From: Asticcacaulis endophyticus
GTDB taxonomy: Bacteria; Pseudomonadota; Alphaproteobacteria; Caulobacterales; Caulobacteraceae
Assembly (NCBI RefSeq): GCF_014652575.1
Contig: NZ_BMZB01000001.1
Location: 310,001-374,000, forward strand
DNA length: 64,000 nt
Reading direction: 5' to 3'
Made by a program: the position numbers and the translations under genes. A model generated the notes under the pieces. That model was not told the origin of the DNA. It worked only from the letters and a program-made list of their open reading frames with translations, and made no database searches. Each line of letters opens with the position of its first letter. The stretch's first letter is position 1. Shown here in pieces: positions 32,085 to 58,128 of this stretch.

Positions 32085-33035
32085 TTAAGAGATGCCATCC
32101 AAATAACGGACTTCTTTCGGCAGTCGGATTTCAGTGCCACCGGTACGCATGATGCCGGCCACTTCGTAGGTCATCGACCCCTTCTGCCAAGGTGCCAGGA
32201 ATTTATGAGGCATCGGCAGATGGAAGCGAAGAACCTCCGGATCGCGGCGATAGGCGACGGCCCGGCCTGACGAAGATGCGCCAGCCGTGTTGAGCGCCCG
32301 CAAAGAGCGGATGACAAGCGGCAGGCCGGTTTCGCCGGTATAGGCGTTATTCTCACGCAGGAATGTGAGAATGGTCTTGTCGGCGTTATCACCAATCGGC
32401 GTGGTGGCCATATAGTTCAGCACGCCCCACGGCAGGAGCACAGTATCAGCCATCGCGGTTTCCGCGGTGCCGAGATACTGGTTGGTGATAAGGGCGTTAA
32501 AGTCGCGTAACACCTGGGTCGGCGTCTTGCTGGCCCAAGTCGTGGCCGAACCCGTGCCGTCAGCAGGAGCCGTAGTTGCGGTGACGTTCGTGTCGTTGAC
32601 AAGCCCGGTCCAACCCTTTTCGCCCGTCCCGGTCATGGCTACGCCCCACAGGAACTGTTCTGCGATGCGGCGTGCGCCCTGGCCTTTTTCGTCGCCAAGC
32701 TGACGACCTTCAGCCGCCGCGACGTTGATCTCTTCCAGTGACCATTCGTAGCCGATACCGGCCAGTTCGAATGCTTTCAGGAATTGATCGCGGGTCACGT
32801 CGGCATAGGGCATGTCGAAGCCCTTGCCAGACAGAAACTCAGCCTTACCGGCAGCGTCAGACGAACGGAACAGTGTGCCGCGCGCCCATTCGCTGCCTTC
32901 GGTGATCACGGGGATAACCGAGGCGTAGTCGAATGACGGGTATTTCTTCTGGTAGACGGTGCGCTCGATATTATAGAACGCAGGCGTCACGAAGCCGAGC
33001 GCGGATTGCGCGTCGGTGAAAACCAATTGGTTCAT
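32085..33035 (-). CDS. Major capsid protein (DUF2184 type)
   Basis: This 316-residue protein has the start QSALGFVTPAFYNIERTVYQ and the strands WARGTLFRSSDAAGKAEFLS and RFHLPMPHKFLAPWQKGSMT, which match the DUF2184 group of HK97-fold capsid proteins. It sits between the decoration protein and the small coil protein. No scaffold domain is fused; that function is probably in the DUF2213 protein upstream. Confidence 0.85.
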   Translation of the reverse strand: MNQLVFTDAQSALGFVTPAFYNIERTVYQKKYPSFDYASVIPVITEGSEWARGTLFRSSDAAGKAEFLSGKGFDMPYADVTRDQFLKAFELAGIGYEWSLEEINVAAAEGRQLGDEKGQGARRIAEQFLWGVAMTGTGEKGWTGLVNDTNVTATTAPADGTGSATTWASKTPTQVLRDFNALITNQYLGTAETAMADTVLLPWGVLNYMATTPIGDNADKTILTFLRENNAYTGETGLPLVIRSLRALNTAGASSSGRAVAYRRDPEVLRFHLPMPHKFLAPWQKGSMTYEVAGIMRTGGTEIRLPKEVRYLDGIS

Positions 33036-33524: not shown

Positions 33525-34667
33525 TTAAGCCGCGTCGGCGGGAGATTTCCACCCGTCGCGCAGAGCTTGGTTGCGGGCATTACGGGCAGCGTCGGCCTGA
33601 GCACGCATGTCGCCCTTGGGCGCAACACCGTCAGACAGCACGGATTGGAACGGATCGGCGGGCTTGGCATCCTTGGCGATAGCCTTGAACATGCCGCTGA
33701 TTTCGGCGTCGGAAGCGTCCTTAGCCATTTCGTCACCAAGCTTGGAAACGACAGCGGCGCGGCGAAGTTCAGCGTCAGACTTGCCTGACACGTCGATTTT
33801 ACCGTCAAGCTTATTGACGGTGGAAACCAGCGCGGCGCGATCTGCCACCAACTTATCCAGATCAGCGGGCTTTGGCGCGCCGTCTTGGGCCTTTTTCAAG
33901 TCGGCCTTGAGTGTGCCGATTTCCTCATCCTTGGACGCAATTGCAGCCTTGTGCGCGGTGTCAGCATCGGAAAGTTTTGCCGCTGCGGCATCACGATCCT
34001 TGGTCAGCTTATCGATGGCTTGCGCGCCCTGATCGGTCGTAGAGACCGAGAGGCCGTCAACCATGACGTTACGCAGATTGTCCGGCATGTGCGGATTCCT
34101 TTCGTCTGCTACAGTGATCGGGGCAGCGCCCCATGAAATCGCACCGTCACCGATGCGAGCCTTTGAGCCAGCCCGCGCCCGGTCAACGAGTGCGAGGTGG
34201 TTGAACTTGATATGACGTTGAACCGCGTCGTATTCCTCGCCATCAGCCGTGACGCCCGGAACCCAATCGATCACGCAGGTATAGCCCGCGCTCAATTCGC
34301 GCTTGCCAGCCTCGAACGCCTTGATCGCGGCCGCATCCTTGACAATGAGCGGAAACTGAACCCACTCTCCGTCCTTCTTGGCCAGCGTGGATACCTCACC
34401 CGCGGCCAACTCTTTCCAGTTGTCAGCCGTGACGCCGTCCTTTGGGTGGTCGATGGTGATGGGCATGTGTGACGCAGAGCGGAGGCTTTCGTCGGAAAAG
34501 ACCTCTTCGGCGGGCCGATACACCCGCACAACCGCCTTGTCAGTGACGCCCATTTCGGAGCCGGTGTAAATCTGAACGCCGGTCCGAACCGCCCTTGCCT
34601 CAGCAATCAGGTAGCCGTCAGCGCTCCGGCGCGTGCCCGCGACGGTTACAGCATCGGTAAATTGCAT
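33525..34667 (-). CDS. DUF2213 prohead protease/scaffold protein
   Basis: This 380-residue protein has residues 1-180 forming a DUF2213 domain (VRVYRPAEEVFSDESLRSAS; HMPITIDHPKDGVTADNWKE; HLALVDRARAG), thought to be a prohead protease relative. The rest is a charged helical region (ATHK and DTAHKAAIASKDEEIGTLK) like a scaffold. A fused protease-scaffold makes sense between portal and capsid genes. It starts right after the portal stop (2 nt). Confidence 0.8.
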   Translation of the reverse strand: MQFTDAVTVAGTRRSADGYLIAEARAVRTGVQIYTGSEMGVTDKAVVRVYRPAEEVFSDESLRSASHMPITIDHPKDGVTADNWKELAAGEVSTLAKKDGEWVQFPLIVKDAAAIKAFEAGKRELSAGYTCVIDWVPGVTADGEEYDAVQRHIKFNHLALVDRARAGSKARIGDGAISWGAAPITVADERNPHMPDNLRNVMVDGLSVSTTDQGAQAIDKLTKDRDAAAAKLSDADTAHKAAIASKDEEIGTLKADLKKAQDGAPKPADLDKLVADRAALVSTVNKLDGKIDVSGKSDAELRRAAVVSKLGDEMAKDASDAEISGMFKAIAKDAKPADPFQSVLSDGVAPKGDMRAQADAARNARNQALRDGWKSPADAA

Positions 34668-34669
34668 GG

Positions 34670-36523
34670 TTAAACCTCAGCTATCTCAGCGTGCCAATTC
34701 GGCTTTATCTCTTCGAATATCTCAACACCCAGCTCGATCTTGCCTTTCCATGGCTCGATATTAGCGATGTCTATACCTACTGGCAGTGCATAGGTGATTG
34801 TGATGTGCGGGTTGTAATCCTGATGATCCCAAGACGCCCCAGCCTCTTTGACCCGCTCATGGCGATATGAAAGATTCCACGCGCCGAACACCATTACTGT
34901 GGCGTCACCAAATTGCTCCATCATACGAGGGCCGCCCGCGTTGATGGTTAGTTCCCCATCTACATTTCCCCAGTCGTCGCCGACCTTGAGCCAGTCGATG
35001 GGCGTTTTAGAGAAGGCAATCGTGACGTGCATGTCGTCAGCCGCAAGAGTCGTTTCAACGCCTTGAACCTTGAAATGCTCGATAATCTCAGCAGCGTTCT
35101 TCACGTCGCGGCGGATGTAAAGCGTGCGCGGTGTAGCGTCATTTGCAGCCAGTCGCGCGTTCGGATCGGTTAACGCAGCGCCCAATGCCGCCGTCTCGTC
35201 ATCACCATCCGGCTCTTGCTCTGATAGCTTGCCGTATTCATCAATGGCGGCCTCTAAGCCCGGCAACGAACCATCCTCAATAAATGCGTTCACCAGAGCG
35301 TCAGATAGAACTTCAATCGGCATAAGCTGAGGCGATGCGCCACCACTGCCCGCAATGGCGCGGGCGGCGTCAGCCTTGATTTTGAACACGTCGGCCTTTT
35401 CCTTGGCGCTCATTTGCCACAGAGGTGACCAACGATAATGAACCTCGTCGGGCCTCGAACCCAAAGCTGAGCGGATAAGGCATTCATCGAGCCGATAAAG
35501 CGCGGGTGTGGTCTCTATCTCCTGATCGGCACTCAGGCGGTCGTAATAGTTGCGCAGATCGCTATCACCGGTCGCGTTCATGCCAGCGGGGGCTTGCCCC
35601 AACAGCCGCGTGGCAGGAATATCCGCCGCACCAGACACGATCTGTAAAAACCTATCCAGCACGTCAGGCAAGCCCGCAAAAGACGCCGCTTTGGTTTCGT
35701 ATTCTTCCTCTTTGTCGAGGATGATTGTGCCGTTTATTCCTTTGGCCGTGTTGGCCAGCGTGAAGCGCTTTAACAGCCGCGCCTCATATCCGGGGTCCAT
35801 CATGCCCTGCATAAAGCCGGGAATGCGGATCACATCAACCTTGGCCTCAAAGACCAGAGAGGCGATATTGCCAGCGGTTGCGTCAGTGTTCTTGATTTCA
35901 GTAATGACCGAATTTAGAACGCTGTCGCCCCATCCTTTTCGTGCGTTTGTCGATAGGTCGGGGTCAGCCTGTTTCGCTCCAAGAAATATCGCCAGCCGCG
36001 ACGGGTGGATTGTAAGCTGCTGGCCGCTGGCATTGGCCAACGTGTAATATTTTGGCTTGCCGTACCACTCGGATGTCGGATCTCGGTCTATTTCGCCCGC
36101 GGCCAGAAATCGGCACGACAGGACGGTTAGATACTTCACACCACCCCTTGATACGCGGTCCATGTTGAGCGGCAAAGTCGGGTTTAGATCGCCCGTACCA
36201 ATCATGATGGCAGCTCCGCCCCACAAACGGGCCAAACGCCGTGCCTCCTGAACCTTAGCTTTCAGACCGAGGCGTTTTTCCTCAGCCTCTAAGGCTTCAA
36301 TCTGCTCAGGCTTCGCTTGCCAGTCGCGCCATGCTCGGACGCTGTCAAACGCCGGGATATCCACAATCTTACGCGGCAACCACGACCCGTCATAGCCGAA
36401 TGCGATCTGATCATCACTCAACATCGGCGCGCCGTAGAACGTGGTCGCCGCCTTATCTCGGTCTGTCCCCATACGGGAAACAAGAGAGGTGAGGCCGTCA
36501 GTAATGCGGGCAACGATACTCAT
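34670..36523 (-). CDS. Portal protein with C-terminal Acb1-like 2H phosphoesterase domain
   Basis: This 617-residue protein has residues about 1-440 that are a DUF1073-type portal (GYDGSWLPRKIVDIPAFDSV; PATRLLGQAPAGMNATGDSD; LYRLDECLIRSALG), the dodecameric DNA channel. Residues about 465-617 are a separate domain with two H-h-T motifs, MHVT (H499, T501) and PHIT (H573, T575), the mark of 2H phosphoesterases. The nearest known relative is Acb1, which cleaves cyclic nucleotide signals of CBASS defence. Whether the domain is active here is an inference. The two halves are joined by an acidic linker (EQEPDGDDETAAL). Confidence 0.85.
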   Translation of the reverse strand: MSIVARITDGLTSLVSRMGTDRDKAATTFYGAPMLSDDQIAFGYDGSWLPRKIVDIPAFDSVRAWRDWQAKPEQIEALEAEEKRLGLKAKVQEARRLARLWGGAAIMIGTGDLNPTLPLNMDRVSRGGVKYLTVLSCRFLAAGEIDRDPTSEWYGKPKYYTLANASGQQLTIHPSRLAIFLGAKQADPDLSTNARKGWGDSVLNSVITEIKNTDATAGNIASLVFEAKVDVIRIPGFMQGMMDPGYEARLLKRFTLANTAKGINGTIILDKEEEYETKAASFAGLPDVLDRFLQIVSGAADIPATRLLGQAPAGMNATGDSDLRNYYDRLSADQEIETTPALYRLDECLIRSALGSRPDEVHYRWSPLWQMSAKEKADVFKIKADAARAIAGSGGASPQLMPIEVLSDALVNAFIEDGSLPGLEAAIDEYGKLSEQEPDGDDETAALGAALTDPNARLAANDATPRTLYIRRDVKNAAEIIEHFKVQGVETTLAADDMHVTIAFSKTPIDWLKVGDDWGNVDGELTINAGGPRMMEQFGDATVMVFGAWNLSYRHERVKEAGASWDHQDYNPHITITYALPVGIDIANIEPWKGKIELGVEIFEEIKPNWHAEIAEV

Positions 36524-36532
36524 GTCCGCTCC

Positions 36533-37918
36533 TTAGAGGCCGTCAAGGGTGTAGGTGCTGCTCGATAGAAGGGCATTAAATGCCCGGCTGGTACTGTCGG
36601 CGTCGTCATCGTGCGTGGCTTCTGGGAAGCCTTCTAGGGCCGAGAACCAATCTTCGTTCCACGCCCCTTTGAGAACCAAAACATTGCCCGCCTCAGCTTG
36701 GGCCGAGAACGGGCTGAATCGCGTAACCTTGTCGCCAGATTCCGGCGTGGCCCGCGCAGTGAATCCGCTCAGAAGTTTGATGAGGTTAGTGACTTGCGAT
36801 TTACCGGCCTGCCCAGGATCTTGCGGAAGCGAAACTTCAGTCCCGATACCGTCCTGTTCGGCGGTGTTTTTTATAAGCGATTCTACGCCACTTGGAGATA
36901 GCCACGCCTTGACATGATGGCCCACAATGTATCGACCATCCGGCAGTTTGCCGAGCTTAGTGCCAGCCGTGCCATCAGGATCATTACCTTCAATCTTCGG
37001 CGTAGCGCCTAAATCCCAACCGCGAACCCACCGAACACCGGCGGGCGCGACCTCAACGACCTGACACCAGCCACGCTGAAACAGCAGACCCGCGGCTGGA
37101 CGTATATTCCAGTTGCCACCAAGGAGCCGTTCGCGCTCAACCGTGCCAAGGGCCATCAGGTTCGCAAGGTAGCCCGGATCAGCGGCCATTAACGCCCTGT
37201 TGTCCGTCAACTTCGCCGGAACGAAGGTCACAGACTTGGGTGGAATGGGCTTCTGAGCCCCATCGGCATCAGGCGCCGTGTGACTTGCTAGGTCGTCGGG
37301 ATTATCACCCCAAACTATCGTATCGCCTACCCGTATAAACCACCTGAGAACGCCAGCACGCTCCGGAATCGGAAGGCCCGTTTCTGGGTTGATCCACCAT
37401 GATATGAATTTCGCGACCCAACTATCCGCATCAGGATTGCATGTCGCTCTGATATATGGCCGCACACCGCTCATTGAGCGATTTCGGCTGACCATGTACC
37501 AGAATTGCTTTTCGCTGAAATGCGTCAACTCATCGAAGCAAATCAGCGGTATCTGTGAGCCCTGCCAGTTCAGGACGGTCTTATCGTGCTCAAGGTGAGC
37601 GAAACTTACTGATGCGCCGGAAGGAAACTTCCACTCCAGAACATGCTCTTTAGGAACTGCCCCCATCGAAGGATAAAGTTTCTGGCTTTCATCCCAAAGG
37701 CCACCCTCGTTACGAACCTGCACCGTGGAACGACGAAAGAAAACCGCGCCGAAGTTGGCGTTAGCTATATGCCTTAGGGGCTCCATCAGGAGCGCCCAAG
37801 TCTTTCCGCCGCCAGCAGAGCCGCCGTATATCGCAATATCAGCCGGTGACGACAGGAAGGCCATTTGCGGACCGTCCTGCGGCCTTATGACCGTTTGGCT
37901 CGGCTCACCCCCTGCCAT
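36533..37918 (-). CDS. Terminase large subunit
   Basis: This 461-residue packaging ATPase-nuclease has Walker A GGSAGGGKT (33-41), Walker B-like LICFDELTHF, and the nuclease start VRGWDLGATPK. It cuts the concatemer and pumps DNA into the head through the portal encoded next. It overlaps the small subunit stop by 14 nt. The length is normal for the family. Confidence 0.93.
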   Translation of the reverse strand: MAGGEPSQTVIRPQDGPQMAFLSSPADIAIYGGSAGGGKTWALLMEPLRHIANANFGAVFFRRSTVQVRNEGGLWDESQKLYPSMGAVPKEHVLEWKFPSGASVSFAHLEHDKTVLNWQGSQIPLICFDELTHFSEKQFWYMVSRNRSMSGVRPYIRATCNPDADSWVAKFISWWINPETGLPIPERAGVLRWFIRVGDTIVWGDNPDDLASHTAPDADGAQKPIPPKSVTFVPAKLTDNRALMAADPGYLANLMALGTVERERLLGGNWNIRPAAGLLFQRGWCQVVEVAPAGVRWVRGWDLGATPKIEGNDPDGTAGTKLGKLPDGRYIVGHHVKAWLSPSGVESLIKNTAEQDGIGTEVSLPQDPGQAGKSQVTNLIKLLSGFTARATPESGDKVTRFSPFSAQAEAGNVLVLKGAWNEDWFSALEGFPEATHDDDADSTSRAFNALLSSSTYTLDGL

Positions 37919-38549
37919 TGTCAGGCAGTTGGAATATGGTCACTGAGGGGGCTGGAAGATCCGCCCCATCCCTCCCCGTCAACTCAACCTTATCCTTGAA
38001 CATTCCCAAGTGTCGGCCGATCTTCTCAAGCGCGCCAACCTTGTCGTGCATCTTGATCGCGAATCCGTCTTTGGTCAGCTTGACCTCGGAAACGGCGGCC
38101 TTGATATCATCCGGCAGATCGTCGCGATTGATAGGGTCAACGAACGGTGCGTCGACATATTTGACCAAAGACGCGCTGCCAATTTCCTCAGCGGGAAGGC
38201 GCTTGCCATCATCAGTGAAGCCGAACGCGACCTCTTTCGTGCCCCAGTTCACTACGTCCGAAGCGTTGGCAAAACCTACCTTGGCAAGTTCTTGCAGCAC
38301 CCGGTCGGCGGTGATTTCGGTGCGTTTTGAACGTGAAGCCTGCGCCTCGGAGATCGCAAAAATTATCTCAGGTTTGCTAAGGTTCTCATGGCCTATCGAA
38401 TGGGCGGTCGAGACGCTGTATCCCGCCCTTACCGCAGCCTGTGTGGCATTGAGGTCGATAAGGTATTCCTCAACGAACCGCTTCTGCTTGTCCGTCAAAT
38501 CGCGTCGAGGCGCATCATCAGGCCAAGGCTTTTCCTTGCCTTCCGACAT
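37905..38549 (-). CDS. Terminase small subunit
   Basis: This 214-residue protein shows LTDKQKRFVEEYLIDLNATQ followed by AAVRAGYSVSTAHSIG, the Terminase_2 helix-turn-helix that recognises the packaging site. A central oligomerisation part and a C-terminal VELTGRDGADLP tail follow. It begins the morphogenesis block. No obvious cos or pac site could be pinned down near it. Confidence 0.9.
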   Translation of the reverse strand: MSEGKEKPWPDDAPRRDLTDKQKRFVEEYLIDLNATQAAVRAGYSVSTAHSIGHENLSKPEIIFAISEAQASRSKRTEITADRVLQELAKVGFANASDVVNWGTKEVAFGFTDDGKRLPAEEIGSASLVKYVDAPFVDPINRDDLPDDIKAAVSEVKLTKDGFAIKMHDKVGALEKIGRHLGMFKDKVELTGRDGADLPAPSVTIFQLPDNGRG

Positions 38550-56856: not shown

Positions 56857-57095
56857 CCAGGCGAAGCCCTTCAATACTATCATGGGCTGGAAAAATGGCG
56901 CTGGCAGGCGTAGCAGTCAGGGTCACGCAGTTAGACGACGGCTCGGTCACGGTTGACACCTTGACAGGCGGGAACTTTCCACCGCCCATAGCGTCAATTA
57001 AAGAAAACGAAGCAAGATTGGGCGACGAGGCTATCAATGGCGCGTTTAGTAAAGGTGTACGCAAATCTAGAGGCCTTCAAAGACAGGCACGGTAA
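56853..57095 (+). CDS. Small protein directly upstream of the integrase
   Basis: This 80-residue protein starts at GTG 56853, overlapping the previous stop by 4 nt (GTGA). Its last 59 nt overlap the integrase gene in another frame. The position fits an excisionase, but I see no clear helix-turn-helix in it (ALAGVAVRVTQLDDGSVTVD is beta-like). Confidence 0.5.
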   Translation: MTRRSPSILSWAGKMALAGVAVRVTQLDDGSVTVDTLTGGNFPPPIASIKENEARLGDEAINGAFSKGVRKSRGLQRQAR

Positions 57096-58128
57096 AGAGC
57101 GGCACTATTTTAGGAAGTCTGGTCACAAACGCATACCTGTAAAAGGTACGTTTGGGTCGCATGAATTTGACGAATCCTATGAGGCCGCAAAGGCAAGCGT
57201 GGCCGCCCCCTCCCGCCCCGGCGAGTCGTCCATCCGCCCCGGTACGGTTGATGATCTTTGCGCCAGGTATTACGATTCCTACGGCTTTAAAAACCTCAAA
57301 GCGCCATCACAGAAGCATTACCGTCACCAGATTGAAGCCTTCAGAAGCGTCATGGGATTCATGATGGTGCGCAGCCTCGCTAAGCGACACTTTAACCAGA
57401 TCAAATCCGATATGGCTGAAAGGCCGGGCGCGTGCCGGACGCTGTTAAAGCGCCTGACCACCCTACTCAACTTCGCCATAGACGAAGAGATGATCGATAT
57501 TAATCCGATGGCAAGGGTTAAGCTTCCGGAAGAGGGCGATGGATTTACCCCGTGGTCTGACGAGGATATAAAGCATTATCTTTTAAAATGGGGCGCAGGC
57601 ACAAGGGAGCGTCTTGGCCTGTATCTATGTTTGTTCACCGGGCAGCGTCGTTCTGACGTGGTGCGCATGACGCAATCCGATATTCGCGACCACGAGATAA
57701 GGGTTGTGCAGCAGAAAAGCAGTCGCAGATTTAAAGCTGGCAAACAGCTATGGATACCGCTTCACCCGCTCTTACAGGCCGAACTGGCGCTTTGGCCGCA
57801 CAATCAAAAGGCCCTAATCGTAAACAGCCGCGGTGGCGCATTTTCGTCAGAGGGGTTTGGAAACTGGTTACGGCAGGCAGCTAAGGATGTGAACCTTAAC
57901 GATCAAGGCGTGTCATTTGATCCACCGCTGATCGAAGGTACACGCGGACCGCACGGCCTCAGAAAGGCAGCAGCAAGGCGCTTAATTGAGGCTGGCTGCG
58001 ATGGGGAATCGGCGCGGGCAATAACTGGACACGCCAGTGAAAAAGAGCTTGCGGTCTATATTCGTGACGTAAACCAGCTAAAAAAGGCGCGTCAAGCCAT
58101 AGGTAAATTGGATCAGGAAAAGGTTTGA
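57037..58128 (+). CDS. Tyrosine integrase of the prophage
   Basis: This 363-residue protein has the catalytic set LFTGQRRSDVVRM (Arg), GPHGLRKAAARRL (His and Arg), ITGHASEKELAVYIRD (His and Tyr). The stop is 77 bp from the tRNA-Arg end, the typical int-att arrangement. It would recombine the 16-bp core at 13533 and 58205. It lies at the end of the rightward operon, so it may be made in the early phase. Confidence 0.93.
   Translation: MARLVKVYANLEAFKDRHGKERHYFRKSGHKRIPVKGTFGSHEFDESYEAAKASVAAPSRPGESSIRPGTVDDLCARYYDSYGFKNLKAPSQKHYRHQIEAFRSVMGFMMVRSLAKRHFNQIKSDMAERPGACRTLLKRLTTLLNFAIDEEMIDINPMARVKLPEEGDGFTPWSDEDIKHYLLKWGAGTRERLGLYLCLFTGQRRSDVVRMTQSDIRDHEIRVVQQKSSRRFKAGKQLWIPLHPLLQAELALWPHNQKALIVNSRGGAFSSEGFGNWLRQAAKDVNLNDQGVSFDPPLIEGTRGPHGLRKAAARRLIEAGCDGESARAITGHASEKELAVYIRDVNQLKKARQAIGKLDQEKV

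Follow-up and report, generated by a model that had tools for sequence, protein, structure and literature searches.

2H phosphoesterase domains joined to phage portal proteins, which form the ring that DNA passes on its way into and out of the head, have been described in two surveys of polyvalent proteins. The relevant passages of the first (PMC5512222, published in 2017) describe fusions of 2H domains with MuF or portal domains, for which either RNase activity or the destruction of immune nucleotides is suggested. The corresponding passages of the second (PMC9503650, published in 2022) report the 2H-portal fusion again and suggest that it is packaged, injected and directed against SMODS signalling. 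The fusion and the idea of counter-immunity are the same as those considered below; however, these passages name neither the Acb1 family nor the portal families, and gain and loss of the domain are not described in them. Temperate phages provide a comparable arrangement: their MuF polymorphic toxins (PMC5576092) are likewise described as head proteins with C-terminal enzyme domains, encoded beside the portal gene. There, however, the carrier is MuF rather than the portal protein, and the cargo is described as toxins.

Acb1 proteins of phage T4 and of Erwinia phage FBB1 (PDB IDs: 7T26 and 7T27) are standalone enzymes of a family that breaks down alarm molecules of bacteria, the FBB1 frame being 153 residues long. 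In contrast, the Acb1 domain described here, encoded by a prophage of Asticcacaulis endophyticus, is fused to the portal protein. The same two-domain architecture extends over the whole length of the portal protein of Pseudanabaena phage Pam3 (PDB ID: 8HDS), which is 43.7% identical to the Asticcacaulis protein (tblastn) and differs from it in having H-I-S instead of H-I-T as the second motif of the 2H domain. RHEph04, a phage of Rhizobium etli, has the fusion as well. The Pam3 sequence of 621 residues aligns with the Asticcacaulis protein to its residue 616, and the deposited coordinates contain 442 residues (aligned range 24–451). As the coordinates stop short, the Acb1 domain is absent from the virion model, which is what would be expected if it were mobile or removed.

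The 2H-portal fusion and the idea that it counters immune signalling are thus already published (2017 and 2022). The present analysis adds the Acb1 assignment of the domain with its nucleotide pocket, the finding that three portal families carry the fusion, the evidence that near-identical portals have gained or lost the domain, and its absence from the Pam3 model. The papers listed in our literature searches include no report of a portal fusion under the name Acb1, and no experimental work on a 2H- or Acb1-portal fusion.

The portal-Acb1 gene and its surroundings

The window, i.e. the whole stretch of DNA that was analysed, comprises 64,000 nucleotides (contig NZ_BMZB01000001.1, positions 310,001–374,000). 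Its relevant features, in window coordinates, are:

34670–36523, minus strand: portal-Acb1 fusion gene, 617 aa, ATG at 36523
35363–36394, minus strand: Phage_portal_3 (PF06381) domain, residues 44–387 (Pfam, E = 3.1e-107)
35129–35233, minus strand: linker region, residues 431–465 (from AlphaFold confidence; lowest part, 452–461)
34688–35128, minus strand: predicted Acb1 (PF23474) 2H phosphoesterase domain, residues 466–612 (Pfam and predicted fold)
36533–37918, minus strand: terminase large subunit, upstream neighbour (Pfam PF03237 and PF17289)
37905–38549, minus strand: terminase small subunit (Pfam PF03592)
33525–34667, minus strand: DUF2213 protein, immediate downstream neighbour (Pfam PF09979)
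32085–33035, minus strand: major capsid protein (Pfam PF09950)
57037–58128: integrase, adjoining a tRNA-Arg gene

The fusion gene lies on the minus strand, exactly at the coordinates given in an earlier, sequence-only reading of the window, and the plus strand across the same interval is stop-rich throughout. Downstream of it, the genes for the DUF2213 protein, a cement protein, the major capsid protein and a MuF-like protein follow in this order. The window thus holds a prophage, as shown by the terminase, portal and capsid genes together with an integrase gene next to a tRNA-Arg gene, and the head module of this prophage looks complete.

That the gene encodes a genuine portal protein, as had been proposed, is borne out by its position in a terminase-portal-capsid operon and by the PF06381 match, which scores 358.8 bits against a Pfam cut-off of 33.8. 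The gene adjoins the terminase gene within the head operon, as is characteristic of DUF1073 portals; NCBIfam assigns the protein to the HI1409 family, and the match to the PHROGs portal family spans residues 7–612. A profile search of the source genome returned a single Acb1 match and a single Phage_portal_3 match, both of which correspond to the portal-Acb1 gene. PADLOC gave no match, a result of little weight, since the models of that program describe defence systems.

Family, fold and active site of the C-terminal domain

According to the sequence-only reading, a separate Acb1-like domain with H-hydrophobic-T motifs at residues 499–501 and 573–575 follows the portal beyond residue 440. Both motifs are present at precisely these positions (H499-V-T501 and H573-I-T575), but the domain begins later than was thought, near residue 463, and is preceded by a low-confidence linker (residues 452–461). 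Taken alone, the motifs are weak evidence, because two or more of them occur in ∼1% of shuffled versions of residues 451–617 (204/20,000). The assignment nevertheless stood up to profile comparison: residues 466–612 match the Pfam Acb1 family with 117.4 bits (E = 5.5e-34; cut-off 27) and contain both catalytic motifs as well as most of the published nucleotide pocket. In addition, the sequence of the structurally characterized FBB1 Acb1 is matched by the domain at E = 1.6e-7.

Structure prediction, which had been suggested as a check, yielded a confident 2H fold that is closest to Acb1, and not a different one. The full-length AlphaFold model, built with 68 aligned portals, has a mean pLDDT of 84.7, with most of the Acb1 part above 85 and residues 452–461 below 50; modelled alone (42 rows), the domain reaches 91.2. 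The top match of the domain model among solved structures is FBB1 Acb1 with 3'3'-cGAMP in the post-reaction state (7T27; Z 16.5, 2.0 Å over 133 residues), and further matches include apo Acb1 (Z 15.4), the phosphoesterase 4QAK (Z 10.8) and E. coli LigT (Z 10.6). The portal part of the model matches the Pam3 portal with a Z score of 30.3. On the strength of sequence profile and model together, the C-terminal domain is assigned to the Acb1 family. The next closest fold after Acb1 is that of a phosphodiesterase of Burkholderia phage BCSR5 (Z 13.8), which has been solved with both an open and a closed lid (PDB IDs: 9q2y and 9q2g).

The roles of the pocket residues Y12, H44, T46, F107, H113, T115, E141 and W147 of T4 Acb1 are set out in the relevant part of PMC9117128. 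Their equivalents in the window protein, aligned through FBB1 or, for Y469, read from the FBB1 sequence, are:

35117–35119, minus strand: Y469, equivalent of T4 Y12 (base stacking)
35021–35029, minus strand: first H-x-T motif, H499-V-T501, equivalent of T4 H44 and T46
34799–34807, minus strand: second H-x-T motif, H573-I-T575, equivalent of T4 H113 and T115
34712–34714, minus strand: E604, equivalent of T4 E141 (adenine contact)
34694–34696, minus strand: W610, equivalent of T4 W147 (lid)

The predicted domain thus resembles the T4 and FBB1 enzymes in its 2H fold, in having both H-x-T motifs and in keeping counterparts of Y12, E141 and W147, and differs from them at the position of F107, which is a histidine (H567) in the window protein and W, H, F or Y among its relatives.

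Conservation of these positions was assessed in 222 portal-fused Acb1 domains from among the matches listed, which were told apart by the final 160 residues of their frames, are not independent of each other, and form 113 clusters at 80% identity. H499, T501 and H573 are invariant (113/113 clusters), while position 575 is occupied by T in 98 clusters, by S in 14 and by A in one. Y469 is kept in 112 of the 113 clusters and E604 in 87 (E141 being replaced in the other 26); however, conservation of these two residues is inflated, because the peptide patterns used in the search included the surroundings of Y469 and the stretch G599–E604. Neither H-x-T motif was part of any pattern, so that only the counts for these motifs escape this inflation. 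W610 is represented by W in 89 of the 99 clusters that have a residue at this position and by another residue in 10, and has no counterpart in 14 of the 113. The median dN/dS over 55 independent pairs is 0.14 for the Acb1 domain and 0.13 for the portal core, with wide scatter and with recombination ignored. The Acb1 domain is under purifying selection. A residue of the catalytic tetrad is lost in only two of the 222 domains (H499 to R in L095 and T575 to A in L184), which are candidates for naturally inactive versions.

Because the equivalents of F107, E141 and W147 vary, T4 Acb1 and the fused domains may differ in substrate range. A more radical departure, namely that the domain is an active 2H enzyme for some other substrate, such as RNA with 2',3'-cyclic phosphate ends, a different immune nucleotide or RNA as such, appears quite unlikely to us. 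The 2H fold does serve several reactions, the BCSR5 enzyme is the nearest fold outside Acb1, the residues equivalent to E141 and F107 are variable among relatives, and there is a weak similarity to LigT (PF02834), although at 21.3 bits it falls under the Pfam cut-off of 23.3. On the other hand, Acb1 itself is the best match in both sequence and fold, E604 and W610 are kept in the window protein, and the 2017 survey found these 2H domains not to be associated with RNA ligases (PMC5512222).

Gain and loss of the domain on closely related portals

In order to characterize the distribution of the domain, complete portals were surveyed, frames cut by contig ends being excluded (3/77, 1/20 and 6/61). 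Among the listed complete portals of viral contigs nearest to the core of the window protein, Acb1 is present on 28 of 74 and absent from 46. The extension behind the portal core measures 197–222 residues in the former and 40–73 in the latter, with two exceptions. When the surveyed portals were compared with each other, with the window protein and with further phages, at least 80% core identity to an Acb1-bearing portal was found for 31 of the 48 portals without the domain, the best value being 97.6%. On a quick tree of the portal cores, made without bootstraps, the state changes 14 times, and well-supported branches force no fewer than 9 of these changes.

In five such pairs the DNA on both sides of the exchanged stretch (the portal before it and the DNA after it) is ∼89–95% identical; for L332 and L327 the exchanged stretches measure 492 and 345 bases, respectively. 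The portal of RHph_N28_2 is 58.6% identical to that of the window over residues 2–436 and ends without Acb1, and in Yong-M3-232 Acb1 is a separate gene that overlaps the portal gene. The gap behind portals without Acb1 contains small ORFs only and no recurrent cargo family (the largest cluster has 4 members). The domain is therefore dispensable on portals and is exchanged as a block.

A related arrangement was observed in a Roseococcus prophage (L066:2522–6483), in which a separate Acb1 gene is located two genes behind a weak Phage_portal match and precedes a gene for a minor-head-protein-like product, i.e. in the same place as the fusion.

The distribution also bears on whether the domain might be a non-catalytic appendage with a structural or binding function. 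Although the domain is part of a structural protein and has lost a catalytic residue in two cases, we regard such a function as very improbable: the catalytic residues are among its most conserved columns, near-identical portals do without it, and it is exchanged as a block. Dispensability combined with catalytic conservation thus makes a purely structural domain unlikely.

Three portal families and other cargo

Locus scans, in which the best 80 loci per scan were considered, led to 310 loci with, among the matches listed, 235 distinct frames that contain Acb1. The carrier is Phage_portal_3 in 201 of these frames, Portal_Mu (PF06074) in 13 and Phage_portal (PF04860) in 8, the remaining 13 containing none of these domains. 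Pfam confirmed PF04860 and Acb1 in one frame in five cases (L054, L166, L203, L233 and L237), and likewise PF06074 and Acb1 (L055, L065, L153, L185 and L216). The portal is N-terminal and Acb1 C-terminal in all 222 fusions. Within the survey, and among the proteins listed, Acb1 is present on 11 of 19 complete Portal_Mu proteins and on 10 of 55 PF04860 relatives. Portal_Mu fusions (L055 and others) have a C-terminal tail of 78–95 residues behind Acb1. Portal_Mu relatives that lack Acb1 end in a similar tail, an arrangement suggestive of insertion of the domain in front of it.

The Acb1 domains were placed in a tree (57 rows, clustered at 65%) on which the portal family changes 3 times, the minimum possible being 2, and starred branches alone require at least 2 changes for Portal_Mu carriers. 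Because this tree has many weak branches and two long ones that come together, we do not press the exact numbers. The tree and the position of Acb1 at the same end of portals from three families indicate that the domain either reached different portals repeatedly or moved between them.

Acb1 is not the only domain in this position. Matches to an ADP-ribosyltransferase (PF03496) follow Acb1 on the Phage_portal_3 proteins of L104 and L215, a PBECR3 nuclease follows it on that of L255, and in L354 an ADP-ribosyltransferase is located directly behind a Phage_portal_3 portal that has no Acb1. An apparent fusion of a portal with an Abi_alpha match (L359) looks frame-shifted and was not counted. Acb1 was also encountered away from portals: joined to ART-PolyVal (L220:3251–4657), within long multi-domain frames typical of polyvalent proteins (L225:624–6386, 1921 aa, and L230:863–6328, 1822 aa), and as standalone Acb1-like genes annotated, apparently in error, as prohead protease or prohead protein (L002:3989–4441, L003:2116–2715 and L494:3007–3423). 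The last of these is on a Rhizobium plasmid, near genes for DUF932, NUDIX and VapC proteins, suggesting that plasmids may carry Acb1 too.

It is conceivable, though on balance doubtful, that the portal C-terminus is a general slot for exchangeable cargo, in which three portal families swap cassettes encoding anti-immunity enzymes (Acb1, ADP-ribosyltransferase and PBECR nuclease); about a dozen copies of such an enzyme per head would either be freed by processing and enter the cell along with the genome or act while the particle is being built.

Time and place of action

In portals of the HK97 fold the C-terminus faces the interior of the head, and the portal ring normally remains with the head. 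For the domain to act at DNA entry, it would consequently have to be severed from the ring and ejected. Entry was one of the two placements offered in the sequence-only reading, which envisaged neutralization of defence either at the site of DNA entry or during assembly and considered the role of the fusion in the particle unsettled, with which we agree. In its full form, a virion-borne effector would be present in about a dozen copies per head, and the domain, once cut or otherwise released, would enter the new host with the DNA and pre-empt CBASS. Such injection has been put forward in the passages on the fusion in both polyvalent-protein papers (PMC5512222 and PMC9503650). The window protein shares one trait with injected effectors, namely that an effector domain is joined to a head protein; the fusion is C-terminal, and genes for DUF2213 and MuF-like proteins belong to the same operon. 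ADP-ribosyltransferase or PBECR3 domains behind Acb1 or in its place recall injected polyvalent proteins, and the deposited Pam3 chain (442 of 621 residues) is compatible with a domain that is either flexible or removed. We nevertheless judge this scenario unlikely, given that the ring stays behind and that, to judge by length, no conserved processing site is evident in a linker which, measured in relatives from the end of the core profile to Acb1, varies from 37 to 277 aa with no fixed value and is rich in E, A and D. With the C-terminus in the head and no sign of cutting or ejection, entry is the less likely of the two placements.

Production of free Acb1 from an internal translation start was considered as well and rejected as a general mechanism: start codons with SD-like sequences are as frequent at the junction (33/200) as in a control stretch (33/200), and codons 426–470 of the window gene include neither ATG nor GTG.

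An anti-CBASS role of the portal-fused domain is predicted as likely, and we infer its substrate, activity, time and place as follows: a portal-tethered, catalytically competent Acb1 probably destroys CBASS signals in the cytosol late in infection. The domain would be flexibly tethered to the portal, a protein synthesized late in infection. Cyclic di- and trinucleotides (3'3'-cGAMP, cAAA) would then be cleaved in the cytosol by newly made subunits, and by portals of still open procapsids, before cell suicide sets in. As part of the portal protein, the enzyme would be timed to the moment at which capsid-assembly proteins trigger CBASS. According to the relevant part of PMC9117128, activity of T4 Acb1 appears from ∼15 min of infection, coincident with the late onset of CBASS, and a passage of PMC12409349 describes one CBASS system in which the sensor interacts with the prohead protease. 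Both observations fit late action against CBASS.

The genomes that hold such loci provide a further, suggestive indication. SMODS, one of the cyclase families of CBASS, scored over the cut-off in 9 of 42 locus-holding genomes versus 14 of 385 genomes of the class to which the window belongs (Fisher p = 1e-4); the restriction control HSDR_N also rises, though less (16/42 versus 92/385, p = 0.06). The enrichment is only suggestive because of this rise in the control and because the two sets are unmatched in genome size, taxon and assembly type, the 42 genomes being named isolates of 3–8 Mb that include Gammaproteobacteria (57 genome loci were tried first, of which 15 titled as MAGs were left out). 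In the source genome itself, the profile search gave no match to SMODS or to HSDR_N.

If the domain is active, a structural protein of the phage would itself be a counter-defence factor, confined in time and space to head assembly, the stage at which CBASS is triggered, and a gene annotated only as a portal could alter the sensitivity of a phage to CBASS. Near-identical phages with and without the domain, such as L332 and L327, are ready pairs for asking whether a component of the particle cleaves an immune signal.
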